Assembly (NCBI GenBank): GCA_937926215.1
Contig: CALEYA010000018.1
Coordinates: 1 to 53,925 of the forward strand
Source: an uncultured Croceitalea sp.
GTDB lineage: Bacteria; Bacteroidota; Bacteroidia; Flavobacteriales; Flavobacteriaceae
Length of the DNA stretch: 53,925 bases
Reading direction: 5' to 3'
This document shows positions 5,016-53,925 of the stretch, piece by piece. The position numbers and the translations under genes were made by a program. How positions within the stretch are numbered: the first letter of the stretch is position 1; each line of letters opens with the position of its first letter. The notes below the pieces were generated by a model. The model ran no database searches and was not told the origin of the DNA. It worked only from the letters and a program-made list of their open reading frames with translations.

Positions 5016-6299
5016 CTACCTTTTGTCAACTTCGACAAAAGGGCGGAGATTTGCACCAACATATATTTGACGCGGACGACCAATAGGTTCCTTGCGCAAA
5101 CGCATTTCCCTCCATTGGGCAATCCAACCCGGCAATCTGCCCAAGGCAAACATTACGGTAAACATATCCGTGGGTATTCCTAAAGCACGATAAATAATCC
5201 CGGAATAAAAATCCACGTTGGGGTAAAGTTTCCGTTTTACAAAATAGTCGTCCTCCAAAGCTTCTTTTTCCAATCCTTTTGCAATTTCTAAAATAGGATC
5301 ACTAATTCCTAAATCATTCAAAACTTCATCCGCGGCTGTCTTTATGATTCTTGCTCTTGGATCAAAGTTTTTATAGACCCTATGTCCAAAGCCCATTAAT
5401 CGAAACGGGTCTTCTTTGTCTTTGGCCTTGGCCATATATTTTTTAGTATCGCCACCATCTGCTTCAATGGCTTCGAGCATTTCCAAAACAGCTTGGTTGG
5501 CGCCACCATGTAACGGCCCCCATAAAGCGGAAATACCTGCGGATAGCGAAGCAAAAAGCCCTGCGTGGCTGGAACCTACGATACGTACCGTAGAGGTAGA
5601 ACAATTCTGCTCATGGTCCGCATGCAAAATCAGCAATTTGTCCAAGGCATCTATGATGATTTTATTTCTTTTGTATTCTTGATTGGGTTTTTTGAACATC
5701 ATCTTATGAATGTTCTCCACATACCCCAAGGAATCGTCCCCGTAATCCAAAGGAAGTCCCATTTTCTTTCGCATGGCCCAAGCTACCAATACTGGAAACT
5801 TGGCCAAAATCCTTACGATGGAATGGTACATGGCTTCATCAGAAGAAACATCCACAGATCTGGGATTAAAAGCGACCAAGGCACTTGTTAAGGAAGACAG
5901 TACTCCCATAGGGTGGGCAGACTTTGGAAAACCGTCCAAAATCTTTTTCATCTCCTCATCTACATGGGATTCGTTTTTGATATCCATATGAAAAGCGGCC
6001 AACTGCTCTTTGTTGGGGAGCTCCCCAAAAATCAGCAAATAGGCAACTTCCAGAAAATCAGCTTTTTCCGCCAATTCTTCTATGGAGTATCCGCGGTAGC
6101 GCAAAATACCTTTTTCACCATCTAAAAACGTAATGGCACTTTCACAAGAACCGGTGTTTTTATAACCTGGGTCTATGGTTACGATACCACTAGTACCCCT
6201 TAAAGCTTTAATATCGATTGCCAACTCATCTTCCGTTCCCTTTATTACTGGGAATTCATATTTTTTTCCTTCAAATTCAAGTGTTGCTTTATCCGACAT
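5016..6299 (-). CDS. gltA: citrate synthase
   Basis: A 427-residue type II-like citrate synthase, which condenses oxaloacetate and acetyl-CoA at entry to the TCA cycle. The N-terminal beta domain (ATLEFEGKKYEFPVI) is typical of Gram-negative enzymes. Catalytic regions are present: the His in WGPLHGGANQAVLEML, the His in MGFGHRVYKNFDPRA and the Asp in YPNVDFYSGI. RLPGWIAQWREM and a C-terminal arginine-rich tail complete the fold. Length is normal and the start MSDKATLEF is standard. A Bacteroidota-type promoter lies about 33 bases upstream and a strong terminator follows, so gltA is probably mainly monocistronic. Confidence 0.96.
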   Translation of the reverse strand: MSDKATLEFEGKKYEFPVIKGTEDELAIDIKALRGTSGIVTIDPGYKNTGSCESAITFLDGEKGILRYRGYSIEELAEKADFLEVAYLLIFGELPNKEQLAAFHMDIKNESHVDEEMKKILDGFPKSAHPMGVLSSLTSALVAFNPRSVDVSSDEAMYHSIVRILAKFPVLVAWAMRKKMGLPLDYGDDSLGYVENIHKMMFKKPNQEYKRNKIIIDALDKLLILHADHEQNCSTSTVRIVGSSHAGLFASLSAGISALWGPLHGGANQAVLEMLEAIEADGGDTKKYMAKAKDKEDPFRLMGFGHRVYKNFDPRARIIKTAADEVLNDLGISDPILEIAKGLEKEALEDDYFVKRKLYPNVDFYSGIIYRALGIPTDMFTVMFALGRLPGWIAQWREMRLRKEPIGRPRQIYVGANLRPFVEVDKR

Positions 6300-6331
6300 T
6301 TATAAGATTTAATTTATTAATTATAGGGCGA

Positions 6332-6362
6332 TAAATTTACGAAAAAGGAAAGGTTTTAACAA
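6332..6362 (-). promoter_or_regulatory. predicted gltA promoter
   Basis: On the minus strand, TTG (6362-6360), a 20-base spacer, then TAAATTTA (6339-6332) fit the Bacteroidota consensus TTG-N17-23-TAnnTTTG except for the last base. The expected start site near 6325 leaves a leader of about 26 bases before gltA. Confidence 0.5.
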
Positions 6363-6370
6363 TATTGCCC

Positions 6371-6383
6371 ATCCAATTTGGAT
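6371..6383. promoter_or_regulatory. palindromic operator-like site upstream of the gltA promoter
   Basis: ATCCAA-T-TTGGAT is a perfect 13-base palindrome. It sits 8 bases upstream of the predicted gltA -33 element, where an activator would bind. It is short and unique as far as I can see, so chance is possible. Confidence 0.3.
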
Positions 6384-6417
6384 TATTCTTAACAATAGTC
6401 GTCCCAAATGTGCAAGC

Positions 6418-7953
6418 TTACACCGTATAAAGGACACGGTAATATTCGTCCACGGATTTTTTCCATGTAAAACGGGCTTTTTTTGCCGCTGTTCGCATTT
6501 TTTCCCAAGCGGGTTTATCATTTAAAAACAGGTCTAGGGCCACGTCAAAAGCCGTCAACATGTTTTCAATTTTATCTTCATAGGTATCCCCGGCAAAACC
6601 AAATCCGGTCTTCATGTGTTTTACGGTATCTATCAACCCACCGGTATGGTGTACTAAGCAAGGATTACCGTTACGCATGGAAAGCATTTGGCTTATTCCA
6701 CAGGGTTCGAACAAACTGGGCATAAAATAAAGGTCAGACTCCAAATACATGGAATCTATTAGACTTTCTGATTGACCATTGGTGAAAATAAAATTATCGT
6801 ACTTGTAACTCATCTCCCTAAACAGTTCTTCATACTCTGGGGCACCTGTACCTAACAATATAAAAATACCACCCATTTTTCTGAGCTTCCCTAAAATTTC
6901 TTCGAACGCCTCTGGCGAACGCTTAAAGAAATAAAATTTCTGTTCCGTTAAGCGTGCCACACTCGATACGATAAACTTGGGCTTATTGCCCACGTACTTC
7001 ATTATCTTCTCCCCGGTGTGGGCAAGGAAGTCCGCTTTGTATTTTTTGGATTCTTCTTGTAACCATCGAAAAATAGCTTTTACGGTATTCCGATAGATAT
7101 AACCCTCAGGCTCGGAATTGATGTTCTTATAATTACAACCGTTTAAAATCCCGAACAGTCTTCCTTCTTTATTGGCCCGTTGCAGATCCAGCTCCAAACC
7201 TTCCCCGCCAATAAATTCTGGGGCAGAACTCGGTTTCATGACATCCTCTTTATAGGATGGCGAAACGGTATGGACGGCATCAGCAAACCGAATACCTACG
7301 GCCATAAGATTGATACAATCTTGATACCTATAGTCCATTAAGCGGTCCTCATCATACCTAATATTGGGAAACCAATTTCGTATAGAGGAATAATTATCTT
7401 GGAACGGCCTGATTCCTTGGATGGCCAGGTTATGTATGCTATAGACAAACCTAATATCCTTTAAAACTTCATACGTTACATCATACTCGCGTAAAAACAA
7501 CAGTAGACTGGAGTGCCAATCATGCAAATGCACGATATCCAATTTTTTAAAAGCCCCTATTTTTATGGCTTCTGCCACCGCAGTACAGAAAATAAAATAT
7601 TTTATGGCATCCGTAAAAAAGGGTTCCTCCGGATCATCATGATAGATATGGGCAATGCCGCCCGCCTCAATCTCTGGATGGTGTATGACGTAATGGTGAA
7701 TATTTTTAAAAGGTTTTTTTGGACTTACCTCAAAAAGCTCCGCGGTATACTGGATTCCGCGTAACTCAAAATTTAGCTCGCTGATCAAAGTACCTCCTTG
7801 GTGCAACCTCCCATACGAGGGCACTACAACATGAACGCTATCTCCCCGTTCCGCAATCTGCCTTGGAACGTCCCTAACAACATCGCCCATTCCACCTGCT
7901 TTACAATTGGCAATGGCATCATTTTCAGCAGCGGCAAAGAGAAAATTACTCAT
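6418..7953 (-). CDS. glycogen/starch synthase-like GT5 glycosyltransferase
   Basis: A 511-residue GT-B fold protein of the GlgA family (GT5), whose members extend alpha-1,4-glucan from ADP-glucose. The nucleotide-sugar loop is KAGGMGDVVRDVP near residue 18, against the usual KTGGLGDV. LHDWHSSLLL and YSIHNLAIQG are classic N-domain blocks; SSVARLTEQK opens the C-domain; FEPCGISQMLSMRNGNP contains the donor-site Glu, followed by HHTGGLIDTV. Core residues are kept but the protein is divergent (FLFAAAENDAIANC at the N-terminus). No glgB, glgC or glgP gene is nearby; it sits between eno and gltA. Glycogen synthase is the best call, but activity is unproven. Confidence 0.8.
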   Translation of the reverse strand: MSNFLFAAAENDAIANCKAGGMGDVVRDVPRQIAERGDSVHVVVPSYGRLHQGGTLISELNFELRGIQYTAELFEVSPKKPFKNIHHYVIHHPEIEAGGIAHIYHDDPEEPFFTDAIKYFIFCTAVAEAIKIGAFKKLDIVHLHDWHSSLLLFLREYDVTYEVLKDIRFVYSIHNLAIQGIRPFQDNYSSIRNWFPNIRYDEDRLMDYRYQDCINLMAVGIRFADAVHTVSPSYKEDVMKPSSAPEFIGGEGLELDLQRANKEGRLFGILNGCNYKNINSEPEGYIYRNTVKAIFRWLQEESKKYKADFLAHTGEKIMKYVGNKPKFIVSSVARLTEQKFYFFKRSPEAFEEILGKLRKMGGIFILLGTGAPEYEELFREMSYKYDNFIFTNGQSESLIDSMYLESDLYFMPSLFEPCGISQMLSMRNGNPCLVHHTGGLIDTVKHMKTGFGFAGDTYEDKIENMLTAFDVALDLFLNDKPAWEKMRTAAKKARFTWKKSVDEYYRVLYTV

Positions 7954-8002
7954 AGGGGAATACGTATTTTTTTAAGTTTTTAATATACGTTATCTACCGC
8001 GC

Positions 8003-8032
8003 AAAAAAAAACCTTTCTTAATTAAGAAAGGT
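8003..8032 (-). terminator. intrinsic terminator downstream of eno
   Basis: ACCTTTCTTAATTAAGAAAGGT (8011-8032) is a fully self-complementary dyad. On the minus strand it is followed by nine T residues (8011-8003), 28 bases beyond the enolase stop. On the plus strand no comparable T-run follows, so it acts for eno. Confidence 0.85.
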
Positions 8033-8059
8033 CTTTGTAGTACTAAATAATCGTTATGC

Positions 8060-9412
<1,353 letters not shown>

Positions 9413-11229: not shown

Positions 11230-12222
11230 CTAATCTTTATCTAATTTATATTTTGCCAAATCCATACCAAATTGAAGTCCTTTGTTGATTACCAACTCTT
11301 CCAATTCAGTCAAGGATTTTTTACCGAAGTTTCTAAACTTCATTAAGTCGTTCTTATTGAAAGAAACCAAATCCCCTAAGGTATCGACTTCTGCTGCTTT
11401 CAAACAGTTCAACGCACGTACGGATAGATCCATATCCACCAATTTGGTCTTTAACAACTGGCGCATGTGCAAGGATTCCTCATCGTAGGTTTCCGTTTGG
11501 GCAATTTCGTCCGCTTCTAAGGTAATGCGCTCATCGGAGAACAACATAAAGTGGTGTATCAAAACCTTGGCTGCTTCCGTCAATGCATCTTTAGGATGTA
11601 TGGAACCATCGGTTACGATTTCAAAAACCAATTTTTCATAATCGGTCTTTTGCTCTACCCTAAAGTTCTCAATGCTGTACTTTACATTTTTTATAGGCGT
11701 ATACACGGAATCAACGGCAATGCTCCCAAGTGGTGCATTGGATTTTTTGTTTTCTTCCGCAGGTACATAACCACGACCTTTTTCAATAATAATTTCCATA
11801 TTGATGGCCACTTTGGAATCCATATTACAGATAACCAAATCTGGGTTCAATACTTGGTAACCAGAAATGAATTTCTGGAAGTCACCGGCCGTTAATTGGC
11901 TTTTACCACTTACGGAAATGGAAACCGTTTCTGTCTCAACATCTTCTATCTGTCTTTTGAACCTTACTTGTTTTAGGTTCAAAATCATTTCGGTAACGTC
12001 TTCTACAACACCGGGGATCACGGAAAACTCGTGCTCCACTCCGTCCATTCTTACCGAGGTTATTGCAAAACCTTCCAAGGAGGAAAGTAATACTCTACGC
12101 AATGCGTTCCCAACAGTTAATCCATAACCAGGTTCCAAGGGGCGAAATTCAAATTTCCCCTCGAAATCTGTTGAGTCAATCATTATAACTTTATCGGGCT
12201 TCTGAAAATTTAGTAATGCCAT
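11230..12222 (-). CDS. rpoA: RNA polymerase alpha subunit
   Basis: 330 residues. The N-terminal dimerisation domain shows [26 protein letters not shown] and [16 protein letters not shown]. After a linker, the C-terminal domain ([43 protein letters not shown]) provides the helix-hairpin-helix contact with UP elements and activators. Length and organisation are normal. It lies 17 bases downstream of rpsD. Confidence 0.98.
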
Positions 12223-12239
12223 GTGGATTAGTGTTGTTT

Positions 12240-12845
12240 TTATTTAGAATATAACTCGACGATCAATTGCTCTTTGATGTTCTCTGGAATCTGAAGTCTT
12301 TCTGGAACGGCTATAAAAGTACCTTCCTTCTTCTCACTGTTCCAAGTAATCCACTCATATACACTGCTATTGTTGTCCAATGAATCATTGATAGCTTGTA
12401 CCGATTTGGATTTTTCCCTAACACCAACAACGTCACCGGCTTTTAAGGAGTAAGATGGTATGTTGACCAACTCCCCATTGACCGTAATGTGTCTGTGCGA
12501 TACCAGTTGTCTTGCACCTCTCCTTGAAGGGGAAATGCCCATTCTGTAAACCACGTTGTCCAAACGGCATTCACAAAGTTGTAAAAGCACTTCACCGGTT
12601 ACACCATCTTTTCTTTTGGCATTAGCGAACAGGTTTCTAAACTGACGCTCCAAAATACCATAGGTGTACTTGGCTTTTTGCTTCTCCATTAACTGGATTG
12701 CATATTCTGATTTTTTACCACGGCGACGGTTGTTACCGTGCTGACCCGGAGGGTAATTCTTTTTTTCGAAGGCCTTGTCGTCCCCGAATATCGCTTCACC
12801 GAATTTACGGGCGATTTTTGATTTTGGTCCTGTATATCTTGCCAT
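12240..12845 (-). CDS. rpsD: 30S ribosomal protein S4 (uS4)
   Basis: 201 residues. [17 protein letters not shown] is the Bacteroidota-type start, and the S4 RNA-binding domain ([25 protein letters not shown]) follows. It is a primary 16S binder and in many bacteria the translational repressor of the alpha operon. The 102-base spacer to rpsK is one of the longest in the cluster and contains small dyads (CGC-TTAG-GCG and AAGG-ATAAG-CCTT on the minus strand), so a leader is possible but not shown. Confidence 0.98.
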
Positions 12846-12947
12846 CTTCTTGTTTTAGGAAAGTGTGATTATGAATTAAGGCTTATCCTTCGATAATCTA
12901 TAGTACACCTTCAGTGAAAATCCGCCTAAGCGAACCGTTATGATTAA

Positions 12948-13340
12948 TTAAACTCTTCTTCTTTTAGGTGGTCTACAACCGTTGTGCGGCATTGGCGTTA
13001 CATCAATGATTTCCGTAACTTCAATCCCTGAGTTGTGTAAGGTCCTAATTGCGGACTCCCTACCATTACCTGGTCCTTTTACATAGACCTTTACTTTACG
13101 CAGTCCTGCTTCATGGGCAACCTTGGCACAATCCTCCGCCGCTACTTGGGCAGCATATGGCGTGTTCTTTTTAGAACCCCTGAACCCCTGCTTTCCCGCA
13201 GAAGACCAAGAGATAACATCACCCTTCTTATTGGTCAAAGAAATAATGATGTTGTTAAAAGATGCCGTAATATGTGCTTCCCCGTTGGAATCAACGACTA
13301 CTTTGCGCTTTTTTGTTGCTTTGCTATTTGCCTTTGCCAT
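12948..13340 (-). CDS. rpsK: 30S ribosomal protein S11 (uS11)
   Basis: 130 residues, with the conserved blocks [40 protein letters not shown] and the C-terminal [19 protein letters not shown]. It is a platform protein contacting the 3' end region of 16S rRNA. The 97-base spacer to rpsM carries a 14-base-period direct repeat (see repeat entry). Confidence 0.98.
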
Positions 13341-13352
13341 ATTCTTAGTTTG

Positions 13353-13376
13353 TAGTTGTTAGTGTATAGTTGTTAG
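13353..13376 (+). repeat. direct repeat in the rpsM-rpsK spacer
   Basis: TAGTTGTTAG occurs twice (13353-13362 and 13367-13376), separated by TGTA. In mRNA sense this puts CTAACAACTA units just upstream of the rpsK start. The infA leader carries a similar AACAAC-rich run in the same position. Confidence 0.6.
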
Positions 13377-13437
13377 AATCCTAAACATTGCTATTTCAAA
13401 CAGATTCATCTAACAGCAGACTACCAATGACTATTTA

Positions 13438-13812
13438 TTATTTAGTCGCCTTTTTCTTGTTGGCAACCGTTTTACGTTTTCCTTTTCTTGTCCTAGAGTT
13501 GTTCTTGGTACGTTGCCCCCTTAAAGGCAATCCAGATCTGTGGCGGATACCTCGGTAACAGCCTATGTCCATCAAACGTTTGATGTTCAACTGCGTTTCT
13601 GAACGAAGCTCACCTTCAATAGTGTATGAAGCTACGGCATCACGAATCTTACCTATTTCATCGTCATTCCACTCCGTGACCTTTTTATCCTCACTAACGC
13701 CGGATTTCTCTAAAATCTCTTTGGCACGGCTCTTACCTACTCCGAAGATATAAGTAAGTGCAATTACACCACGCTTTTGTTTTGGTATGTCTACCCCTGC
13801 AATTCTAGCCAT
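13438..13812 (-). CDS. rpsM: 30S ribosomal protein S13 (uS13)
   Basis: 124 residues. [26 protein letters not shown] is the family start, followed by the helix-two-turns-helix region and the C-terminal [21 protein letters not shown] tail that reaches the decoding-centre tRNAs. The start codon is 2 bases after the rpmJ stop. Confidence 0.98.
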
Positions 13813-13814
13813 AA

Positions 13815-13931
13815 CTACCCTTGTCTTTGTTTAAATCTAGGATTCTTTTTGTTGATTACGTATAATCTGCCTTTTCTGCGAACAATCTTGCAGTCAGCAC
13901 TTCTTTTCTTTATTGATGCTCTTACCTTCAT
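13815..13931 (-). CDS. rpmJ: 50S ribosomal protein L36 (bL36)
   Basis: A 38-residue gene too short for the ORF track, found by translating the gap between infA and rpsM. The product begins [20 protein letters not shown] and ends NPRFKQRQG. It occupies its normal position in the spc/alpha region, with gaps of 1 and 2 bases to its neighbours. Only one of the four zinc-ligand positions of the classical L36 remains (C14), so this is the zinc-independent form usual in Bacteroidota. Confidence 0.96.
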
Positions 13932-13932
13932 C

Positions 13933-14148
13933 TTAGTATCTATATGTAATTCTTGCTTTGGTCAAATCATAAGGGCTCATTTCAAGTTTAACCTTGTCCC
14001 CTGGAAGTAGCTTAATGTAGTGCATACGCATCTTTCCAGAGATATGAGCAGTCACCACGTGACCGTTCTCCAATTCAACACGAAACATTGCATTTGACAA
14101 TGCTTCGATTATTGATCCATCTTGTTCTATTGCTGGCTGCTTTGCCAT
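13933..14148 (-). CDS. infA: translation initiation factor IF-1
   Basis: 71 residues forming one S1/OB-fold domain: [47 protein letters not shown]-1 binds the 30S A site during initiation. The position between secY and rpmJ is conserved. The 88-base spacer to secY contains AACAAC-rich repeats next to the start codon and a TTGTCA/TGACAA dyad (14196-14216). Confidence 0.98.
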
Positions 14149-14236
14149 ATTACTTAGTTATTTGTTGTTCGTTGTTGGTTTCCAGTGATACCCTATTGTC
14201 ATCATACTACTGACAACCATCAACAGCAAACTAATT

Positions 14237-15586
14237 TTATGCTACTTTCCTATTTTTCCCGGTTTTCATCAAACCGTCGTAATGCCTATTTAACAAATAC
14301 GAATTCACTTGTTGTACGGTATCAATGGCAACCCCTACCATAATCAATAAAGAGGTACCTCCGTAAAACAATGCCCATCCCGCTTGCACGTCCATCAACT
14401 TGACCACAACAGCTGGCAATACTGCCAACAATGCCAAGAAAACAGAACCTGGGAAGGTTATCAATGACATGATTTTATCCAAATAATCACCGGTTTCCTT
14501 ACCGGGTCTAATACCAGGAATAAACCCACCACTTCTTTTTAAATCGTCCGCCATTTTGTTCGTAGGAACAGTAATGGCCGTATAGAAATAGGTAAAAATG
14601 ATAATCAGGACAGCAAACAAAATATTATAAGCCAAGCCAAATATATCCGAAAAATTTACCTGCATCCATTGTCCAAAAGCCGTATCCTTCACAAAACCTG
14701 CACTACCTATAAGTCCGGGAACGAACATAATAGCCTGTGCAAAGATTATCGGCATTACACCAGAGGCGTTCAACTTTAACGGAATGTACTGACGCGAGCC
14801 CATTACGTTTTTCTCATATCCTCCAGAAGCCGTCCTTCTGGCATATTGTACCGGTATCTGACGGATAGCCATTACCAAAAGTACACTGGCCAAAATTACC
14901 AAGAACCAAATAATCAACTCGATTAAGATGAACATTAACCCACCGGTATTGTTGGTTGTTCTTGAAACAAATTCCTGAACAAAGGATTGTGGCATTGTAG
15001 CTATAATACCGATCATGATCAGTAAGGAAATACCGTTACCAATACCTTTATCGGTAATCTTCTCGCCCAGCCACATCGCAAAGACACAACCTGTAACCAA
15101 AATGATTACTGCCGGCACGATAAAATTCAAACCTTTACCTAAGATAAATGCACTATCTGGAACCCCTAAAGCACCTAAACCATACAAATATGCCGGTGCT
15201 TGAACGATACAAATGGCGATCGTCAACCAACGGGTAATCTGGTTTTTGGTTTTTCTTCCGCTCTCCCCTTCTTTATCCAATTTCTGCAAATACGGAATAG
15301 CGATACTCATTAACTGCACTACAATGGATGCAGAGATGTAAGGCATGATCCCCAAAGCAAAAACAGAAGCATTGGCAAATGCACCGCCGGTAAACGCGTT
15401 TAAAATTCCCAAAATACCATCTCCTGCATTTGCAGAAAGACTGGCCAATTGAGCTGTATCAATACCTGGAAGCACTACTTGCGCGCCAAAACGGTAGACA
15501 AGCAATAAGAGCAACGTCATTAAAATACGTTCCCTCAATTCTTGAATTTTCCAAATATTGGATATAGTCTCAATAAACTTCTTCAT
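14237..15586 (-). CDS. secY: protein translocase subunit SecY
   Basis: 449 residues with ten predicted membrane segments, the channel of the Sec translocon in the inner membrane. Typical blocks are ILMTLLLLLVYRFGAQVVLPGID at TM1, GIMPYISASIVVQL in TM2, KITDKGIGNGISLLIMIGI, and the C-terminal FIPGIRPGKETGDYLDKIM with the cytoplasmic loop that contacts the ribosome. It lies 12 bases after rplO, as usual at the end of the spc operon. Confidence 0.98.
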   Translation of the reverse strand: MKKFIETISNIWKIQELRERILMTLLLLLVYRFGAQVVLPGIDTAQLASLSANAGDGILGILNAFTGGAFANASVFALGIMPYISASIVVQLMSIAIPYLQKLDKEGESGRKTKNQITRWLTIAICIVQAPAYLYGLGALGVPDSAFILGKGLNFIVPAVIILVTGCVFAMWLGEKITDKGIGNGISLLIMIGIIATMPQSFVQEFVSRTTNNTGGLMFILIELIIWFLVILASVLLVMAIRQIPVQYARRTASGGYEKNVMGSRQYIPLKLNASGVMPIIFAQAIMFVPGLIGSAGFVKDTAFGQWMQVNFSDIFGLAYNILFAVLIIIFTYFYTAITVPTNKMADDLKRSGGFIPGIRPGKETGDYLDKIMSLITFPGSVFLALLAVLPAVVVKLMDVQAGWALFYGGTSLLIMVGVAIDTVQQVNSYLLNRHYDGLMKTGKNRKVA

Positions 15587-15598
15587 AATATACCAGTA

Positions 15599-16051
15599 TT
15601 ATAAACTTATTGCTTCACCACCTGCTGCCTCAATAGCCGCTTTGGCAGAAGCACTAAATTTATGGGCCGAAACCTTTAGTTTGGCTTTTAATTCGCCGTC
15701 ACCTAAAATCTTTACCAATTCATTTTTTCTAACCAATCTGTTTTCCACCAAAACATCAAAAGAGATATCCCCTTTAATTTTTTTGCTGTCTACCAAGGTT
15801 TGCAATTTATCCAAATTGATCGCTTGGTATTCTTTACGATTGATATTTTTAAAACCAAATTTTGGAACACGTCTTTGCAAAGGCATTTGACCACCCTCAA
15901 ATCCGATTTTCTTGGAATAACCCGATCTTGACTTAGCTCCTTTATGTCCTCTTGCAGCAGTACCGCCTTTCCCTGAACCCTGTCCACGGCCAAGACGTTT
16001 ACCATCTCGGTTTACTGCTCCTTCTGCTGGTTTTAGATTACTTAAATCCAT
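15599..16051 (-). CDS. rplO: 50S ribosomal protein L15 (uL15)
   Basis: 150 residues. The start MDLSNLKPAEGAVNRDGKRLGRG leads into the glycine-rich GSGKGGTAARGHKGAKSRSG segment that threads into 23S rRNA, then FEGGQMPLQRRVPKFGF. Late-assembly 50S protein. Spacing to rpmD is 12 bases. Confidence 0.98.
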   Translation of the reverse strand: MDLSNLKPAEGAVNRDGKRLGRGQGSGKGGTAARGHKGAKSRSGYSKKIGFEGGQMPLQRRVPKFGFKNINRKEYQAINLDKLQTLVDSKKIKGDISFDVLVENRLVRKNELVKILGDGELKAKLKVSAHKFSASAKAAIEAAGGEAISL

Positions 16052-16063
16052 CTTATTGTTGCT

Positions 16064-16243
16064 TTAAGCTTCCTCTGTGGAAACCAAGTGTTCTACTTTT
16101 TTTATCATCCCTAGGATATTTGGCGTTGCATCGTGTTCCACAACATGTCCAATTTTCCTTAGTCCCAAAGCCTCAAGAGTCCTTTTCTGGTTCTGAGGTC
16201 TCTTAATGGCACTCTTTAATTGTTTCACCTTAATCTTCGCCAT
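16064..16243 (-). CDS. rpmD: 50S ribosomal protein L30 (uL30)
   Basis: 59 residues (MAKIKVKQLKSAIKRPQNQK to EHLVSTEEA), the short bacterial ferredoxin-like form. The track starts one codon earlier at a GTG; the ATG at 16243 gives the standard MAKIKV start and a 6-base gap after rpsE. Confidence 0.96.
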   Translation of the reverse strand: MAKIKVKQLKSAIKRPQNQKRTLEALGLRKIGHVVEHDATPNILGMIKKVEHLVSTEEA

Positions 16244-16249
16244 CACTTA

Positions 16250-16774
16250 TTATCCTTTAAAAACTTTTTCTAAACTAACGCCTCTTTCTTTAGCTACCGT
16301 TCCTGCATCCCTCAATTGTAATAAAGCATCAAAAGTTGCTTTTACCACGTTATGCGGGTTAGAGGAACCTTGGGATTTTGAAAGTACATCATGCACCCCA
16401 ACCGCTTCAAGTACCGCACGTACGGCTCCACCTGCGATTACCCCTGTACCTTGTGATGCAGGCTTTATAAATACCCTAGCACCACCAAATTTTCCTTTTT
16501 GCTCATGGGGCAAAGTAGCTTTGGTCAAAGGAATCCTCACCAAATTTTTCTTAGCATCCTCAATAGCTTTGGCTATTGCCGTAGCTACCTCTTTGGATTT
16601 ACCAAGGCCATGGCCTACAACACCGTTCTCATCACCAACAACAACAATTGCGGAAAAACCAAAAGCCCTACCACCTTTTGTTACTTTGGTAACACGTTGT
16701 ACACCAACAAGTCTGTCCTTTAATTCTAAACCGCCCGGTTTAACTATTTCTACGTTTTTATAATTCTGGTACAT
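16250..16774 (-). CDS. rpsE: 30S ribosomal protein S5 (uS5)
   Basis: 174 residues. The N-terminal double-stranded-RNA-binding fold ([32 protein letters not shown]) and C-terminal domain ([32 protein letters not shown]) are complete. The protein affects decoding fidelity at the 30S shoulder. It is 6 bases downstream of rplR. Confidence 0.98.
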
Positions 16775-28356: not shown

Positions 28357-31300
28357 ATGAGAACAAGACTTAATGGAATCTTAACGCTTTTTATGGCGTT
28401 TCTCGTGCATTTTGCATTTGCACAGGACAAAACGATTTCAGGTACGGTTACAGACCCAGATGGTCTGCCGTTGCCTGGGGTTAATATTGTCGTTGAAGGT
28501 ACCTCTAATGGTACCCAAACGGATTTTGATGGATTGTACTCCATCACCGCTAGTCCGGGTCAAACCCTACTATTCAGTTACATTGGACAGAAAGATGTTC
28601 GACGGACTGTTGGGGCGGAGGCAGTGATCAATGTACAAATGCAAGAGGATGCGCAAGCTCTTGATGAAGTGGTTGTAACCGCCTTAGGTATTAAAAGGGA
28701 AAAGAAAGCGTTAGGTTACGCAGTATCAGAGGTTGGCCAAGAATCTTTGGAAAGTAGGTCAACAGGAGATGTTGGTAGAGTCCTAAATGGTAAAGTAGCT
28801 GGATTACAGATTACCAACCAAAGTGGTTTGGCGGGTTCGGGCACGAACGTGGTAATTCGTGGTTTGAGTTCCTTTAGCGGAAGTAACCAAGCACTTTTTA
28901 TTGTAGATGGCGTGCCATTCAATGCAGGCACAAATGCAGTATCTTCATCGACGAACAATAACGATAACAGGAACAGTTTTCTAGAAGGGAATTCCGGATC
29001 CAGTAGATTTTTAGATTTGGATCCGAACTCCATTGAAAGTGTTAACGTACTTAAAGGTTTAGCAGCAGCCAACTTATACGGTTCTTTAGGCCGTAATGGA
29101 GTTATTTTAATTACTACCAAGGGAGGTAGTAGTGCCGGAAAAGGTCCTAAGAAAACCGAAATTACGGTTAACAGTTCTTTCTTTTTTGATGAAATTTCCA
29201 ATTTACCGGAGTACCAAAACGAATTTGGTAACGGGGGTGACCAGTTGTTTCAACCGTTCTTCAGTAATTATGGTTCAAGCTTTAGAAGGGACAACGTGGC
29301 CAGTTTTGAAAACGATCCAGGTGTGCGAAATAGTGACCAAACCATTCCGCACCCTTTTTCCCAGTTCGATAGTCAGGCTTTAAGGGATGCTTTTCCAGAA
29401 TTTCAGAATGCCCGCTTAGCGTATATACCTTATAATAATGTAGAAGGGTTCTTTAGAAGAGGGGGTACCGCATCGACAAATGTAAACTTTAGAAAATCCT
29501 CGGAGGATGGTAAAACTTCTTTCAACCTAAACTATGGTAATTTGCAACAGACCGGTTTTACGCCAGGTAACGGGGTAACCAGAAATACGTTTGGCGTAGG
29601 AGGTAGAGCGGAACTTAGCAATAAATTTACGGTAAATGGTACCATTAACTTTGCACGCACCAACTTTAGGTCGCCCCCTGTAGCGGCTGCTTTAGGTGGT
29701 ACTGCTTCCGGCACACAGAGTTCGTCCTTATTTTCAAATTTATTTTTTACTCCTCGTAGTGTGGATTTGTTAGGGCAACCCTTCCAAAACCCGTTAACAG
29801 GTGGAAGCGTATTTTATAGAACGGGCAATGATATTCAAAATCCACTATGGACAGCGAACAATGCGGGAGTATCCCAAAGAACCAACCGTATTTTTGGTCA
29901 GGCTCAGGTTTCTTATGCCATAAATGATAACTTAAACCTATCCTATAGGGCTGGTTTGGATTTCTCTACGGAGTTCAACACCAACTTCCAAAACCGTGGC
30001 GGTATTGATGGTGGGGCCCGTCTGCAAACAGGTATATTGCAAACATTCACCAATGACAATACTATCTTCGACCACAACTTAGTGTTGACCGGTCAATATG
30101 AACTGAGCAGTCAGATTGGTTTCAATTTTACTGCTGGTGGTACCACCAGACGTGAATTGTTTGAAAGAAATGGGGCAAATAGTGATGGCCAGCAAGAATT
30201 TGGGGTGTTAAGACATTTTAACTTTGCAAATACCTTACCCATTCAGTTAACTACAGAGCGAAATATTGCTGGATTGTATGGCCAAGCTGAAGTCGATTAT
30301 GACGACTGGATATTTTTAACACTAGCAGGTCGTAACGATTGGGTATCAAACTTTGACATCGCTAATAGAAGTATCTTTTACCCCAGTGCCAGTGTCTCTT
30401 TCTTGCCTACCCAAATTATCGATGGCTTAAAGGGTAACGTTTTGAACTATCTTAAAGTTAGAGGTGGTATTGGAACCTCTGCCAACTTTGAAACTCAATC
30501 TGCTTTCCCCGTGGCAACCATTGTTAATCAAAATGTGCAGGATTTTCAGGATGACTCCGGAAATAACCTGGTAAGTCAACAACTCGGGGGCACACTTGGT
30601 AATCCAAATCTTCAACCTGAGACCTTAAGGGAAATCGAAGTTGGGATCGAATCCAGATGGTGGGACAACCGCATCAATTTGGATGTATCCCTATTTAGTA
30701 GGGTAACCAACGATTTGATCATACAACAGCCTCTAGACCCTGCAACAGGTTTCTTACAAACCAACACCAATATTGGTGAGGTTACCAATGATGGTATCGA
30801 AGTTGCTTTGGGCGTGGACATCTTCAGAGCCAAAGACTCTGGAGGGTTTAGCTGGAATTCTTCTGTGAATTTCACTGCACTTGACCCTGTGGTCACGGAT
30901 TTGGGACAAGAGACCGAACAAATTATATATTCCGGTTTTAGTAATTTAGGAAATGCCGCCATTGAAGGAGAGCCTTTGGGTGTGTTATTTGGAACACGTA
31001 TAGAGCGGGATGATAGTGGCAATTTAATTGTCGATTCCAGGGGAGACTACCAGTCGGCAACTGAGGACGGTATCATTGGAGATCCCAATCCCGACTTTAC
31101 CGCCAACTTCATAAATACCATCTCCTACAAAAACTTTACGTTAAACTGGCAAATAAATTACCAACAGGGGGGTGATATCTCTTCATCAACTATTGGCTCG
31201 CTATTGGCAAGGGGTGTTACCGAGGATACTGTAGATCGATTAGGGTCTTTTATCCTACCGGGGGTTAACGTAACCAGAGACGGTGACGGAAACATAACAT

Positions 31301-31650
31301 CCAGTACACCAAATACTACCCAGATAAGTGGATTTGATCTTTACTTCAGAAACCTCTCTGGATTCTTCGGAAAGCGTGAAGCTGCAGTTTATGATGCCAC
31401 ACACATTCGTTTACAGGAAGCTTCCTTGGCCTATTCGTTGCCACAGAAATTCTTGGACAGAACACCTTTTGGAAATTTGACATTTACAGTTTCTGGACGT
31501 AACTTGTTTGTAGAGGCGTTTAATACTCCAGATGGTATTAATTTTGATCCTAATGTTAACGGATTGGGTGTAGGTAACGGATCTGGATTTGACTTTTTGG
31601 CAGGACCTGCCTCTAGAAGCTACGGATTTGGGGTTAAGGCAACGTTTTAA
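28357..31650 (+). CDS. SusC/RagA-family TonB-linked outer membrane protein
   Basis: 1097 residues. A signal peptide (residues 1-23, ending HFAFAQ) is followed by a CarboxypepD_reg-like domain (~25-98: ISGTVTDPDGLPLPGVNIVV, GTQTDFDGLYSI, FSYIGQ). A TonB-box-like segment LDEVVVTALG (102-111), a plug domain (VLNGKVAGLQITNQSGLAGSG, VIRGLSSFSGSNQALFIVDG, VLKGLAAANLYGSLGRNGVILITTKGG) and a ~850-residue beta-barrel ending SYGFGVKATF complete it. Family members form the channel of surface nutrient importers with a SusD lid. It is cotranscribed with the susD-like gene 24 bases downstream. No CAZyme or regulator is adjacent, so the substrate is unknown. Confidence 0.95.
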   Translation: MRTRLNGILTLFMAFLVHFAFAQDKTISGTVTDPDGLPLPGVNIVVEGTSNGTQTDFDGLYSITASPGQTLLFSYIGQKDVRRTVGAEAVINVQMQEDAQALDEVVVTALGIKREKKALGYAVSEVGQESLESRSTGDVGRVLNGKVAGLQITNQSGLAGSGTNVVIRGLSSFSGSNQALFIVDGVPFNAGTNAVSSSTNNNDNRNSFLEGNSGSSRFLDLDPNSIESVNVLKGLAAANLYGSLGRNGVILITTKGGSSAGKGPKKTEITVNSSFFFDEISNLPEYQNEFGNGGDQLFQPFFSNYGSSFRRDNVASFENDPGVRNSDQTIPHPFSQFDSQALRDAFPEFQNARLAYIPYNNVEGFFRRGGTASTNVNFRKSSEDGKTSFNLNYGNLQQTGFTPGNGVTRNTFGVGGRAELSNKFTVNGTINFARTNFRSPPVAAALGGTASGTQSSSLFSNLFFTPRSVDLLGQPFQNPLTGGSVFYRTGNDIQNPLWTANNAGVSQRTNRIFGQAQVSYAINDNLNLSYRAGLDFSTEFNTNFQNRGGIDGGARLQTGILQTFTNDNTIFDHNLVLTGQYELSSQIGFNFTAGGTTRRELFERNGANSDGQQEFGVLRHFNFANTLPIQLTTERNIAGLYGQAEVDYDDWIFLTLAGRNDWVSNFDIANRSIFYPSASVSFLPTQIIDGLKGNVLNYLKVRGGIGTSANFETQSAFPVATIVNQNVQDFQDDSGNNLVSQQLGGTLGNPNLQPETLREIEVGIESRWWDNRINLDVSLFSRVTNDLIIQQPLDPATGFLQTNTNIGEVTNDGIEVALGVDIFRAKDSGGFSWNSSVNFTALDPVVTDLGQETEQIIYSGFSNLGNAAIEGEPLGVLFGTRIERDDSGNLIVDSRGDYQSATEDGIIGDPNPDFTANFINTISYKNFTLNWQINYQQGGDISSSTIGSLLARGVTEDTVDRLGSFILPGVNVTRDGDGNITSSTPNTTQISGFDLYFRNLSGFFGKREAAVYDATHIRLQEASLAYSLPQKFLDRTPFGNLTFTVSGRNLFVEAFNTPDGINFDPNVNGLGVGNGSGFDFLAGPASRSYGFGVKATF

Positions 31651-31674
31651 AGAACATATCTAAAATTGAAAGAA

Positions 31675-33363
31675 ATGAAAAGAATAATTTATTTAATAGT
31701 TGGGTTCGCACTGATTATACAAACGCAGTCCTGTGAATCAACGGAATTGGATATTACAGAAAACCCCAATGCCCTAAGCGCCCCTAATGTAGACGGCCTG
31801 TTTATTACCATCCAGGAAAACTTTGTCAGACATATAGCTGGCGGGGGTACCGGGGAAGACTTTTTTGCTGGTGCTGGTGGCGGTCTTGATCAAGATGGAA
31901 TGGACCTTACCAGAATTGGAAACTTTTTTGGACAATTGTATAATAATCAGCTTCTAGCAGCTGCACAAGATGAAGAATGGGACAATGCCTACAGAGGAGT
32001 TCTACAGCAGATTGAGGCTTTGATACCTCTGGCCGAAGAAGAAGGGCTTTCCAGACATGTGGCCATATGTAGGTTTATTCAGGCATATGTTTATACTTCC
32101 ATGGTTGATTTTTTCGGTGATATTCCGTTCAATGATGCTTTACAGGCGTCAGAAGGTATTTTTGCGCCAACCTTAACTCCGGGAGCCGATGTTTATGCAG
32201 CAGCTTTTGGGTTTTTGGATCAAGCGGACGCCAACTTTACCAACGCTACGACTCGGGATCCATTTATTGACTTGTTTTATGACAATGATTTTGATCGCTG
32301 GCAATTGGCAACCAACACTCTTCGTTTAAAATTGTTGGCACAGACCCGTTTGGTGGATGCCTCTGCGGAAGGACAGTTCAATGCGATTATCAATAGTGGC
32401 AACTACATCCAGGATACGGCCGATGATATGCAATTCCAGTGGGGTACAGGAACTGCTAATCCAGAAACCAGGAATCCGCGATATGTGGACGGGTATTCCG
32501 TAACAGGAGCCAATGATTATATTGCCAATTGGTATATGGAACGGATGATGCTGTCCAATGATCCTAGAATTCGTTACATCATTTATCGACAGACCAATGG
32601 GGTACCTAGTGCAGATCTTCCCGGCTTGCCTCCAGATGCTGGGCAATTGGGTTGTTCTGTGATTACCAATCCTCCTCCACATTATCTTGCTGGTGGATTT
32701 ACATTTTGTGCTTTGGACAACGGATATTGGGGACGTGATCATGGAAGTGAAGAGGGGATTCCCGCGGATAACTTTCTACGATCAACCTGGGGCGTTTATC
32801 CCTTTGGAGGACGTTTTGATGATTCTCGTTTCACAGGCGGCGGCCTGACAACAGGGGCTCAAGGAGCAGGTATAACTCCGATCCTAACTGCTGGTTTGGT
32901 CCAGTTTTTACAAGCTGAAATGGCTATGGCAGCTGGAAATGAAACAGGCGCAGGAATGCTTTTACAACAAGCTATAGCTACCCATATAGATAAAGTTATG
33001 AACTCTGGAATTGAAGACCCTGATGCCGATATGTCTTTGGCACCCACTGCGGACAACGTATCTGATTTCTTAGCAGCTGTAGATATGGATTTCCAAAATG
33101 CGAATACTATGGGTAGGTGGAATGTATTGGGAGAACAATTTATTTTGGCTAGTGTAGGTTTGGGTATTGATTCCTATAATTTTTATAGAAGATCGAATTT
33201 CCCTACCACCTTACAGCCCAATATAAATCAAAATCCGGGTACGTTCATGAATTCATTATTTTACCCTGCAAACTCGGTGAATACGAATAGCAATATTTCC
33301 CAAAAATCAAACAATGGTGAATTTGTCTTTTGGGACACCAATGGTACCCCACCTGCTAACTAA
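31675..33363 (+). CDS. SusD/RagB-like nutrient-binding outer membrane lipoprotein
   Basis: 562 residues from the ATG at 31675; the track starts at a TTG three codons earlier. The lipoprotein signal peptide MKRIIYLIVGFALIIQTQSC has its lipid-anchored Cys at residue 20. DITENPNALSAPNVDGLF and the following TPR-like helices (YRGVLQQIEALIPLAEEEG, AICRFIQAYVYTSMVDFFGDIPFNDAL) are typical of the SusD-like_2 group. The Leu-rich helical core and the C-terminal SVGLGIDSYNFYRRSNFP complete it. It caps the SusC channel and binds ligand at the cell surface. The partner is the preceding gene; the ligand cannot be predicted. Confidence 0.93.
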   Translation: MKRIIYLIVGFALIIQTQSCESTELDITENPNALSAPNVDGLFITIQENFVRHIAGGGTGEDFFAGAGGGLDQDGMDLTRIGNFFGQLYNNQLLAAAQDEEWDNAYRGVLQQIEALIPLAEEEGLSRHVAICRFIQAYVYTSMVDFFGDIPFNDALQASEGIFAPTLTPGADVYAAAFGFLDQADANFTNATTRDPFIDLFYDNDFDRWQLATNTLRLKLLAQTRLVDASAEGQFNAIINSGNYIQDTADDMQFQWGTGTANPETRNPRYVDGYSVTGANDYIANWYMERMMLSNDPRIRYIIYRQTNGVPSADLPGLPPDAGQLGCSVITNPPPHYLAGGFTFCALDNGYWGRDHGSEEGIPADNFLRSTWGVYPFGGRFDDSRFTGGGLTTGAQGAGITPILTAGLVQFLQAEMAMAAGNETGAGMLLQQAIATHIDKVMNSGIEDPDADMSLAPTADNVSDFLAAVDMDFQNANTMGRWNVLGEQFILASVGLGIDSYNFYRRSNFPTTLQPNINQNPGTFMNSLFYPANSVNTNSNISQKSNNGEFVFWDTNGTPPAN

Positions 33364-49579: not shown

Positions 49580-52500
49580 ATGAAACAGTATTTACCCATT
49601 CTCCTTATGGTTTTCTTTTCGCAATTTAGCAGCAGTCAACAACAAGCGGATTCCTATGAAACGCTTTGGGCAAAGGTTTTCAAATTGGAAACGGAGGCAT
49701 TGACCAAATCCGCTTTGGAGCTGGTTTCCCAAATACAGGAAAAAGCAAAAAAGGAAGGGAATGAAGTACAGCAGGTAAAAACCTTGCTATTTACCGCTAA
49801 GTACACCCTAATTCTAGAGGAGGATGCCAAGTTAAAGGTAATCAACGACTTAAAAGAAGCTATCGCCAACTCAGAAACGCCGGTATCCAATGTAATGGAA
49901 AGTTATCTGGCCAATCTGTACTGGCAGTATTTTAAACAGAACCGCTATCTTTTTTACAATAGGACGGAAACGGAGGAAAAAGTAGATGACACGGATTTCA
50001 GGACTTGGGACCTTACCACCTTATTTAAGGAAGTAGGCCTTCACTTTGACAATTCCTTACAGCATCCTGAGGTACTCCAGAATACCAAAATAGGGGATTT
50101 TGAAGGTATTTTGGAGTATTATGCTTCTTCTGATAGCTACAGACCCACGCTTTTTGATCTTTTGGGCCATACCGCTTTGGAGTTTTATAAATCGTCTGAA
50201 AGTAGCATCAACAAACCCTTGGATACCTACAAGATAACGGACAGCGAACTGTTTTGTGACGCCGCCACCTTTGCCGGTTTGGCTTTACCGGAACCCCAAG
50301 CGGTTTCGCTACAGCTCAAGGCCTTAAAAGTATATCAAGCACTTACCCAATTCCATTTGACGGATGACCGGCCGGAGGCTTTGGTGGCCTTGGATTTGGA
50401 ACGCCTGCAATTCCTATATGCCAATGCCCTGGTTGATGGAAAGGATACGAAATACCTGGAAACCCTAAAAAATGCAGCTGAACGGTACAAAGATCAGGAG
50501 GTCTCTGCATTGTATTCCTATGAAGTGGCAAGGGTCTATCAGCAACAAGGAAACCGCTATTCACCACAAAAGGAGGGCACCCACAGATGGAGGCTCAAAG
50601 AGGCCTTGGAACTGTGTGATGCGGTTATCGCCAACTACCCCAAAAGCAAGGGTGCCGAAAAATGCATCGTCCTCCGCGGGGAACTCCTCCATACACAACT
50701 GGAACTTACTACGGAACGCTACCTCCCCAACGCTACAGAAGCGAAGCTCTTGGTCAACTATAAAAACCAGAATGACTTGGCCCTTACGGCCTATACCGTT
50801 TCCCAACGCCAACTAAAAAAACTCCGCGAACTGTATGAACGGGAGAAACAACTGGCCTTTATCAAAAAATTGAAACCTGCAAAACAGTGGCAAGCCCATT
50901 TGATCAATGAGGGCGACTACCAGCCCCACAGCATTGAAGTCGCCTTGCCTTCACTACCCCACGGACAATATTTGATCTTTGCTACCCCCAATACGGCAGA
51001 AACGGAAGCGGAAAAGAGTTTTGCTTACAGTGCCGTAAACGTTACCAACCTGAGCTTAAACCAGCGTAGTACCGAGACGGAAATGCTATTTCAAGTGGTG
51101 GATAGAAGGGATGGAACGCCCAAAAAAGATGCGAAACTCACCTTAAGTTACCGCAAAAATTACCGGGGCAATGTGCAATTACGCACTATACTTACCAATG
51201 CCATGGGTTTTGCCAGTTTTCCGTTAAGCACTGCCAATTTTAGGGTGGATGATATTAAAGTGGCGCATGCCGATGAAACCGCTTTTTTTGGAAATACATA
51301 CATCAACTCCAAAACACGGAAAAAGAAAGAAAAGGTCACTTATGAAACCTTTTTCTTTTTGGACCGAAGCATTTACAGACCCGGCCAACCTGTATTTTTT
51401 AAAGGAATAACGATAGAAAGGGACGGCAAGGTGACACAACCCGTTACAGAAGAACTGGTCACCGCGGTACTGCATGACGCCAATGATCAAAAAGTAGCGG
51501 AACTGGATTTGGAAACCAATGCTTACGGTTCATTTTCGGGGGAATTTGTACTGCCCAATGGCGGACTCAACGGACAGTATCGGTTGGAGGTCTATGGAGC
51601 ATCTAGCTTAATTGACGCTTCGCATTACTTTTCCGTGGAGGAATACAAACGCCCAAAATTTGAAACCTCCTTTCAAGCCGTGACCGAAAGCTACCAATTG
51701 AACGATAGCATTACGGTTACCGGAAAAGCGGATTCTTATGCCGGTAGTCCCATATCCGACGCCAAGGTGGCCTATCGCGTGCAGCGAAACGTGAACTATC
51801 CAGGTTGGTTTTATTGGCGAAGGTCCTATGTGTATTCCGAACCCCAAGAAATAGCCTTTGGGGAAACGGTGACCAAAGCAGATGGCACCTATGCTATCGA
51901 TTTTAAAGCCATTCCGGATTTGTCCGCTAACAAGAAGGACCTTCCTGTTTTTTCCTATACGGTCACTGCCGATGTTACGGATATCAATGGGGAAACCCGG
52001 AGCGCAAGCACTATTGTCCAAGTAGGATACCATGCGCTTACCGCAACCATTGGTATAGCAGCGCGATTGGAGCAAAGCCAGAAAGAACATGAATTAACCA
52101 TAAACACCCAAAACCTTAACGGGCAACCCATAGCCACCAAGGGAACCGTAAAAATGTACAAATTACTAGGGCCTGATGCCGTCCTAAGGCCTCGCCCATG
52201 GATTGCGCCCGACTATCAGACATGGACCAAGGAAGCCTTTAGAAAACGATTCCCCCATGAAGCATATGGCGATGAACAGGACCTTAATACCTGGAAAAAG
52301 GGAGCACAGGTTTGGACTGCCGCATTTGATACGGAAAAGGAAACGAAAGTCCTGTTGAAAAATATCAAAAAATGGACCCCGGGCCAATACATCATTGAAC
52401 TGGAAACCCAAGATAAGTTTGGACAGTTGGTGACCACTAAAACTAAAACCACCCTTTTTAAGGAAAAAGAAAAGACCTTGGCGGACAACCAATTGTTCGA

Positions 52501-53925
52501 TGTTCTTCTAGATCGACCGACCTATGCCCCGGGCGATACCGCGGAACTATCATTTTACACCAATGCAGAAAACCTAAAGGTTAGCTATTGGGTAGAAAAG
52601 CAAAACACCATTGTAAAACGCGGTGTCCTACACCTTAAAAAAGGCTGTGAGTCCCTACAAGTGCCCGTTTTGGAAGAGGATTTAGGCGGATTCTCCGTCA
52701 ATTACAGCTACTCGGTCTATAATTCCTTTCAGGCAGGGAGTGTAGCCGTTTCCGTGCCCTACCCTAATACCGATTTGGAAGTTACCACCAACACCTTTCG
52801 GGACAAAATAGCTCCGGGTACGGACGAAACTTGGAGTTTTAACATTAAAGGTCCCAAAGGCGAAAAGGTAACCGCAGAAATCTTGGCCAGCATGTATGAT
52901 GCCTCTTTGGACCAGTTTAAGGGACATAGTTGGTATTTTAATCCCATACGAAGACCTTACCATTACAGCATTTCACAAGCGAATGCCAACCTGAGTTTTG
53001 GCAACCAAAATTTTAGTAGTTATCACCCAAATTCCGGTTTTGGTGCCATAGCAAATCCATCTTACAGCAAGCTGGATTGGTTTGGGCTAAGTTTTGGGAA
53101 TTCGCGCTGGGCGCAACAACAGTATATTAGAAAAAGTCGCGCAAGGCTGTCGAACAGTTCATACCATTTAAGTTCAGTACCAAAAGGAACCATAGAAGGT
53201 ACGGTATTTGATGATTTTGGCCTACCATTGCCCGGAGTAACTGTTATAGTAAAAGGTACCACTAGAGGCACACAAACCGATTTTAATGGAAGATTTCAGA
53301 TTAAAGCAAAAGCAGGCGAGGAATTGGTTTTATCATATATTGGATACGATTCAAATACCTTAAAAGTAAATGCCCATAATCACTTTGATATCCATTTGAG
53401 GGAAGATTCCAGCAAATTGGAAGAAGTAGTTGTTACAGCATTGGGTGTCAAAAGAGAAAAGCGTGCTCTTGGTTATGCGGTAAGTTCTATTAGCGAAGAT
53501 TCACTAGAAGCAGAAGCGGACGTGGCAACAACTCTGGAGGGGCGTGCCGCTGGGGTACAGATAGCGAAAAATGCACCAGCACCCCCACAAGAAGGGCAGA
53601 AAGAGGAGCTCAAGGAAACCAATTTTGATCAAGTGCAGCTTCGGAAAAATCTACAAGAAACCGCCTTTTTCTTTCCGCACCTTAGCACGGACAAAGAAGG
53701 CAACGTAAGCTTTAGTTTTACCACACCGGAAGCACTCACCCAATGGAAATTACAGCTCTTGGCGCATACCAAGGATCTAAAGCAAGGTACTGCCGAATTG
53801 ACCACCGTAACCCAAAAAGAACTCATGGTCCTTCCCAATCCCCCGCGTTTTTTAAGGGAAGGGGACAGCATAACCCTAAGCACCAAAATTGCGAACCTAT
53901 CCGCCAAGGATTTGCAAGGTTCGGG
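49580..53925 (+). CDS. alpha-2-macroglobulin family protein with embedded SusC-like plug module (3' partial)
   Basis: I translated this frame from the ATG at 49580 to the window end (1448 residues) without a stop; the ORF track omits it because the stop lies outside. A signal peptide (MKQYLPILLMVFFSQFSSS) without lipobox comes first, then a helical N-terminal region to ~450. The MG2 region starts near 587 (FLDRSIYRPGQPVFFKG), with further macroglobulin domains to ~1200. Residues ~1203-1334 are a CarboxypepD_reg domain (GTIEGTVFDDFGLPLPGVTV), a TonB-box-like LEEVVVTALG (1280-1289) and a short plug start (TTLEGRAAGVQIAKN). The A2M domain resumes near 1359 (ETAFFFPHLSTDKEGNVSFSF). No thioester is visible yet. 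A2M proteins trap proteases in the periplasm; this hybrid's role is unknown. Confidence 0.9.
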   Translation, partial: MKQYLPILLMVFFSQFSSSQQQADSYETLWAKVFKLETEALTKSALELVSQIQEKAKKEGNEVQQVKTLLFTAKYTLILEEDAKLKVINDLKEAIANSETPVSNVMESYLANLYWQYFKQNRYLFYNRTETEEKVDDTDFRTWDLTTLFKEVGLHFDNSLQHPEVLQNTKIGDFEGILEYYASSDSYRPTLFDLLGHTALEFYKSSESSINKPLDTYKITDSELFCDAATFAGLALPEPQAVSLQLKALKVYQALTQFHLTDDRPEALVALDLERLQFLYANALVDGKDTKYLETLKNAAERYKDQEVSALYSYEVARVYQQQGNRYSPQKEGTHRWRLKEALELCDAVIANYPKSKGAEKCIVLRGELLHTQLELTTERYLPNATEAKLLVNYKNQNDLALTAYTVSQRQLKKLRELYEREKQLAFIKKLKPAKQWQAHLINEGDYQPHSIEVALPSLPHGQYLIFATPNTAETEAEKSFAYSAVNVTNLSLNQRSTETEMLFQVVDRRDGTPKKDAKLTLSYRKNYRGNVQLRTILTNAMGFASFPLSTANFRVDDIKVAHADETAFFGNTYINSKTRKKKEKVTYETFFFLDRSIYRPGQPVFFKGITIERDGKVTQPVTEELVTAVLHDANDQKVAELDLETNAYGSFSGEFVLPNGGLNGQYRLEVYGASSLIDASHYFSVEEYKRPKFETSFQAVTESYQLNDSITVTGKADSYAGSPISDAKVAYRVQRNVNYPGWFYWRRSYVYSEPQEIAFGETVTKADGTYAIDFKAIPDLSANKKDLPVFSYTVTADVTDINGETRSASTIVQVGYHALTATIGIAARLEQSQKEHELTINTQNLNGQPIATKGTVKMYKLLGPDAVLRPRPWIAPDYQTWTKEAFRKRFPHEAYGDEQDLNTWKKGAQVWTAAFDTEKETKVLLKNIKKWTPGQYIIELETQDKFGQLVTTKTKTTLFKEKEKTLADNQLFDVLLDRPTYAPGDTAELSFYTNAENLKVSYWVEKQNTIVKRGVLHLKKGCESLQVPVLEEDLGGFSVNYSYSVYNSFQAGSVAVSVPYPNTDLEVTTNTFRDKIAPGTDETWSFNIKGPKGEKVTAEILASMYDASLDQFKGHSWYFNPIRRPYHYSISQANANLSFGNQNFSSYHPNSGFGAIANPSYSKLDWFGLSFGNSRWAQQQYIRKSRARLSNSSYHLSSVPKGTIEGTVFDDFGLPLPGVTVIVKGTTRGTQTDFNGRFQIKAKAGEELVLSYIGYDSNTLKVNAHNHFDIHLREDSSKLEEVVVTALGVKREKRALGYAVSSISEDSLEAEADVATTLEGRAAGVQIAKNAPAPPQEGQKEELKETNFDQVQLRKNLQETAFFFPHLSTDKEGNVSFSFTTPEALTQWKLQLLAHTKDLKQGTAELTTVTQKELMVLPNPPRFLREGDSITLSTKIANLSAKDLQGS
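53186..53587 (+). other. SusC-type module inserted in the A2M protein
   Basis: This in-frame segment encodes residues ~1203-1336. It is nearly a copy of the start of the SusC protein at 28357: GLPLPGV, GT..GTQTDF.G, SYIG, EVVVTALG.KREK.ALGYAV and EG.AAGVQI/NGKVAGLQI correspond in order. It also appears to use more AT-rich codons (TTA, ATA, AAA) than the surrounding MG domains, which fits separate origin by domain fusion. Confidence 0.8.

Follow-up and report, generated by a model that had tools for sequence, protein, structure and literature searches.

The question raised by the last gene of contig CALEYA010000018.1 (GenBank assembly GCA_937926215.1), a stretch of 53,925 nucleotides from an uncultured Croceitalea sp. 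of the Flavobacteriaceae that is here called the window, is why a protease-defence protein should contain part of an outer membrane transporter. The gene encodes an alpha-2-macroglobulin (A2M), a bacterial counterpart of the protease trap of human blood, and the original prediction, made from the sequence, had described a CarboxypepD_reg domain, the TonB box LEEVVVTALG and the start of a plug in one frame with the A2M domains. Bait regions of A2Ms are usually regarded as generic protease-sensitive linkers. In this case the bait is almost certainly built from the N-terminus of SusC, a TonB-dependent transporter (TBDT), and the reading that is tentatively favoured is that of a periplasmic A2M trap which shows a genuine TonB box in its bait and may be contacted there by TonB.

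The frame (49580..53923, plus strand) is uninterrupted for 1448 codons and runs open into the contig end, short of the position of the CxEQ thioester. It encodes MG2, A2M_BRD and A2M domains in the expected order, all above the Pfam cut-offs. Pfam and NCBIfam agree with the earlier description of the inserted segment, as the SusC/RagA model TIGR04056 matches residues 1204-1335 collinearly (9e-41) and CarbopepD_reg_2 spans residues 1205-1285 (1e-19); by these matches the bait is a rebuilt one, derived from the N-terminal, periplasm-facing part of a SusC-type transporter. The SusC match ends at residue 1335, and neither database detects a complete plug or a beta-barrel domain in the window A2M. 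The resemblance to the SusC of the same window, also noticed at the outset, amounts to 49% identity (5e-35), and this transporter is the genome's best match to the insert besides the A2M gene itself. Searched against the sequences of solved structures, the insert finds SusC proteins (best 2e-15) and the MG region finds animal A2Ms.

That the insert lies at or near the bait, as had been surmised, is borne out by its location between A2M_BRD and the A2M domain and by an alignment of 23 A2Ms, which places it between the last conserved strand (..WFGxxFG) and RKNLQETAFFFP. A profile starting at RKNLQETAFFFP aligns weakly (E 0.13) to a vertebrate structure sequence, that of the Xenopus egg A2M, at LRKNFSET, which we take to come after the bait region of that protein. 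Structure prediction agrees with this placement. In an AlphaFold2 model covering 768 residues of the window A2M, the MG region is confident and so is the N-terminal extension (NTE), with pLDDT of roughly 90 or higher across most of the domain; residues 1281-1363, which hold the TonB box and the plug start, are disordered, with pLDDT of 30-37 in the plug-start segment. The NTE is accordingly predicted to be a small folded domain of its own, and the chain behind it, which carries TonB box and plug start, to be disordered and to span the bait. In L158, a relative whose insert is longer, AlphaFold2 again returns a confident NTE and a disordered box, and the plug tail is folded at moderate to good confidence. 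A structure search with the window model gave A2M and complement proteins as best matches (probability 1.00), among them the A2M of E. coli, the bait of which is largely disordered and serves as the trigger when cleaved (PMC4498604).

The worry that the insert could be chimeric, or an artefact of assembly, is ruled out by a complete ortholog from the same genus (G007/L042; 2128 aa, 80% identical over the part searched), which carries the same module and supplies the 3' end that had been sought, CNEQ thioester included, and by synonymous divergence between the two genes that is the same in the insert (pS 0.56) as in the flanks (0.54 and 0.48). Therefore both genomes have inherited the module together with the gene. 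Their dN/dS is 0.40-0.50 in the insert vs 0.04-0.09 in the flanks. Recent copying from the linked SusC, at a distance of 20 kb, was considered as a source and rejected, as synonymous sites between insert and SusC are saturated (pS 0.79, against 0.56 for the G007 insert), which makes the event an old one. In most related genomes some 20-30 kb separate the A2M gene from the SusC/SusD pair whose SusC most resembles the insert (28357-33363 in the window), in conserved synteny.

How far the arrangement extends was surveyed in 186 distinct A2Ms (105 from Flavobacteriales, 81 from other Bacteroidia), in which the A2M domain was located by an HMM-based scan and the 110 residues upstream of it were scored with motif matrices from 36 transporters, other segments of the same proteins and shuffled sequences serving as controls. 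At least one TBDT motif is present in 76 of the 105 Flavobacteriales baits, compared with 2/104 and 5/204 control segments and 4.1 in the shuffles; the TonB box was counted in 47, GRVAG in 35, IRG in 29, and VDG and YG in 17 each. In the other Bacteroidia the motifs are found in 13 of 81 baits, from 9 of 37 families, a tally that includes a few weak single-motif matches (controls 1/81 and 2/154; shuffles 1.9). A count made without matrices returns LDEVV (20), LEEVV (15) and DEVVV (13) as the top 5-mers across the baits. Of 70 baits with flanks, 14 have the NTE and 6 have Plug by Pfam, and none has a barrel or SusD domain. In the 23-A2M alignment, TonB-box-like motifs appear at the bait even in relatives that lack the NTE. 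The suspicion that the architecture recurs was thus correct, but not as a single fusion: TBDT motifs are reused widely in A2M baits, where they change fast and frequently lie in scrambled order. In Flavobacteriales such baits are common and frequently rearranged. The components (A2M, TonB box and NTE) are each already known, and it is the combination in a bait that seems not to have been described. Database entries for proteins of this kind may already carry plug or carboxypeptidase-like annotations; in the open-access literature searched, no paper was found that joins A2M with TonB-bait or TonB-plug terms.

Short strings other than transporter motifs also recur among some baits, namely NFRDGD in L104, L105, L108 and L117 and TEQSGG in L090 and L102. 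The Kordia locus L146 has two A2M genes close together, at about 6291-8276 with a short bait and at 11800-16608 with an NTE-to-plug insert (7e-34 to SusC), and in Maribacter the gene directly after the A2M (L111:10451-11176) encodes a small protein with an NTE-like domain of its own.

The best pointer to a contact with TonB is the constraint on the box. When 30 A2Ms picked by their NTE were compared with 32 transporters, the TonB box was found in 29 of the A2Ms, GRVAG and IRG in 13 each and VDG and YG in 11 each, whereas each of the five motifs occurs in 31-32 of the transporters. Relative to TBDTs, column conservation in A2Ms reaches 0.99 in the box (5-95% range 0.92-1.06), compared with 0.81 in the NTE and 0.58 over the 14 residues that follow the box, and the box exceeded both in 2000 of 2000 subsamples. 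Homologs that carry the insert therefore do conserve the TonB box, whose lack of conservation would have refuted the original prediction. In short baits the box lies at mid-bait (relative position 0.50, sd 0.11). TonB genes are present in the window's genome. In SusC, the TonB box (VDEVVV in Bt1763) is required for transport and lies flexibly behind the NTE, which is itself important in vivo (PMC7782687). Because the constraint equals that in transporters, the most likely reader of the box in the bait is the one at work there, the C-terminal domain of TonB.

The signal peptide is of Sec type and has no lipobox, and the 92 full-length Flavobacteriales relatives lack a lipobox as well, so the A2M is probably a soluble periplasmic protein. 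Its periplasmic location, like the TonB contact and the trap function, is an inference. It is proposed that binding by TonB would hold or stretch the bait, and could place the trap where outer membrane transporters open, the most probable way in for foreign proteins; once a protease cuts the exposed bait, the trap would spring and the thioester would capture the protease, as it does in other A2Ms. Several points weigh against a TonB contact. About half of the Flavobacteriales baits have no detectable TonB box, and some have plug motifs only, cases that such a contact fails to explain. A covariation of the insert with TonB paralogs did not appear, as relatives with and without the NTE do not differ in TonB gene number (about 4.4 vs 4.8 per genome). 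Furthermore, the rows compared for conservation are related, and subsampling falls short of a full phylogenetic test. As a separate observation, several TonB C-terminal domains occur in open frames of 470-890 aa (G007 C35, G008 C6, G013 C36 and others), far longer than ordinary TonB proteins and some with the domain twice.

Selective retention of the box is better explained by TonB contact, but the plug motifs and the scrambling are better explained if the bait is an integrated decoy, a somewhat doubtful reading. The bait would mimic the periplasmic parts of the most numerous outer membrane transporters of the cell, so that a protease directed at TonB boxes or plugs cuts the bait and is trapped, and it would turn over fast as attackers change. 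Slightly more doubtful is a fuller version, whose logic is comparable to that of plant immune receptors with integrated decoys: the baits of Bacteroidota A2Ms would keep regaining conserved motifs from the periplasmic parts of the transporters of the same cell, and proteases that target these transporters would spring the trap. A decoy would cover TonB box and plug motifs alike, the baits with motifs only, and 11 baits whose motif order is seen in no transporter, such as L093 (IRG, GRVAG, TonB box); this set was reduced from 16 flagged baits by removing 5 with motif matches inside the NTE. The specific source, NTE and Plug without barrel or SusD, also speaks for it, as does the turnover. The A2M locus of Flavobacteriaceae has mpl and TPR genes upstream and obg downstream, and at this same syntenic place the kind of bait differs between close relatives in Winogradskyella (L096/L100, flank dS 0.40), Algibacter (L089/L093, 0.37) and Maribacter (L123/L137, 0.22). 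In close pairs the dN/dS of the bait is about four times that of the flanks (medians 0.41 and 0.11), although it stays below 1. A general decoy does not predict that over half of the NTE-bearing A2Ms lose the plug motifs while keeping the TonB box, and we know of no protease of the kind required.

It is unlikely that the bait is only a permissive disordered slot into which the N-termini of multi-copy TBDTs are copied and then drift, their motifs being debris without a role. Fast-evolving baits are consistent with such tolerated capture, and in close pairs the advantage of motif residues over the rest of the bait is small (58% vs 46% kept). One ancient origin of the NTE would also suit it and was not rejected (p-AU 0.16), so that separate capture of each NTE was set aside even though the best tree needs 6 changes; bait-trait labels change often on the A2M tree, which is short and poorly supported. 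A very recent donor of the L100 plug piece was likewise rejected, the nearest transporter of its own genome being 62-63% identical and synonymously saturated, and a viral_contigs search and a viral fold search gave nothing useful. Neutral capture accounts for turnover, but it does not explain a TonB box at full transporter-level conservation while its neighbours decay, the capture, among the 70 baits run through Pfam, of the periplasmic N-terminus alone and never of barrel or SusD, or the recurrence of the pattern in unrelated families. A docking role, in which the module tethers the trap to SusC/SusD or another periplasmic NTE partner without TonB force, is very improbable: the importance of the SusC NTE in vivo (PMC7782687) and the 30 surveyed A2Ms that carry one would favour it, but most TBDT-like baits have no NTE (by Pfam only 14 of 70 do) and docking therefore cannot be the general rule.

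An entire bacterial lineage fills its baits with the TonB box, a defined functional motif that is kept as strictly as in transporters, and on the favoured reading this would tie a protein of protease defence to the machinery that couples energy to the outer membrane. The bait variants also provide a natural set for learning what bacterial A2Ms defend against.

The protein shares MG domains, A2M_BRD and A2M domain with the thioester-type bacterial A2Ms (E. coli YfhM/ECAM, Salmonella A2M), and full-length Flavobacteriales relatives have the CxEQ thioester (87/92) and an ExMY-like motif near the C-terminus (88/92); the bait is disordered in both, here by prediction, but differs in its TBDT motifs. 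Unlike the ECAM type, a lipoprotein paired with pbpC, it has no lipobox, and no pbpC was seen among the neighbouring genes of seven loci read by eye. The second A2M of the window's genome (L254:7672-13239, G000 contig C88) is ECAM-like, with a lipobox, CVEQ and an adjoining PbpC-like gene, and it has no TBDT motif above threshold, its one marginal YG score being far from the bait. With the SusC/RagA N-terminus (TIGR04056) the window A2M shares NTE and TonB box, collinear and with the box equally conserved; it differs in that the module sits inside another protein without a complete plug or 22-strand barrel, and in other A2Ms the module is shortened or reordered.

Table 1. Features of the A2M gene and of the SusC-type transporter used for comparison (window positions; residues are those of the A2M)
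Feature	Position	Strand	Evidence
A2M gene, 3' end missing at contig end	49580..>53923	+	Frame; Pfam; complete G007 ortholog
Sec-type signal peptide without lipobox	49580..49639	+	Sequence; lipobox in 0/92 full-length Flavobacteriales relatives
MG2, residues 590-686	51347..51637	+	Pfam PF01835, 1.4e-18
A2M_BRD (bait region domain), residues 975-1090	52502..52849	+	Pfam PF07703, 1.3e-7
Entire bait stretch, residues 1174-1353, from ..DWFGLSFG to RKNLQETAFFF	53099..53638	+	Alignment of 23 relatives
NTE, CarboxypepD_reg-like domain, residues 1204-1275	53189..53404	+	Pfam PF13715, 1.1e-19; AlphaFold2
TonB box LEEVVVTALG, residues 1280-1289	53417..53446	+	Sequence; conservation across A2Ms
Plug-start remnant VKREKRALGYAV .. 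TLEGRAAGVQIAK, residues 1290-1330, predicted disordered	53447..53569	+	TIGR04056 match; pLDDT
TLEGRAAGVQIAK within the plug-start remnant, residues 1318-1330	53531-53569	+	Sequence
A2M domain, residues 1361-1446, directly after the bait	53660..53917	+	Pfam PF00207, 5e-17
SusC-type TonB-dependent transporter (comparator, separate from the A2M)	28357..31650	+	Its TonB box LDEVVVTALG at 28660-28689

Transporter plug motifs are also reused in another protease-related protein of Bacteroidota. Three M56-like (BlaR1-like) peptidases, assigned by eye (L262:2269-4371 in G013, L265:1171-2907 in G035 and L266:587-2212 in G021), end in one or two plug-like repeats that read ..PLYIVDNKE..VLKGEKATNSYGKKGENGVIIITTK. 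They share with the A2M baits the presence of plug motifs in a periplasmic segment that belongs to no transporter, but the segment is the C-terminal tail of a membrane peptidase, has no TonB box and is not a bait.

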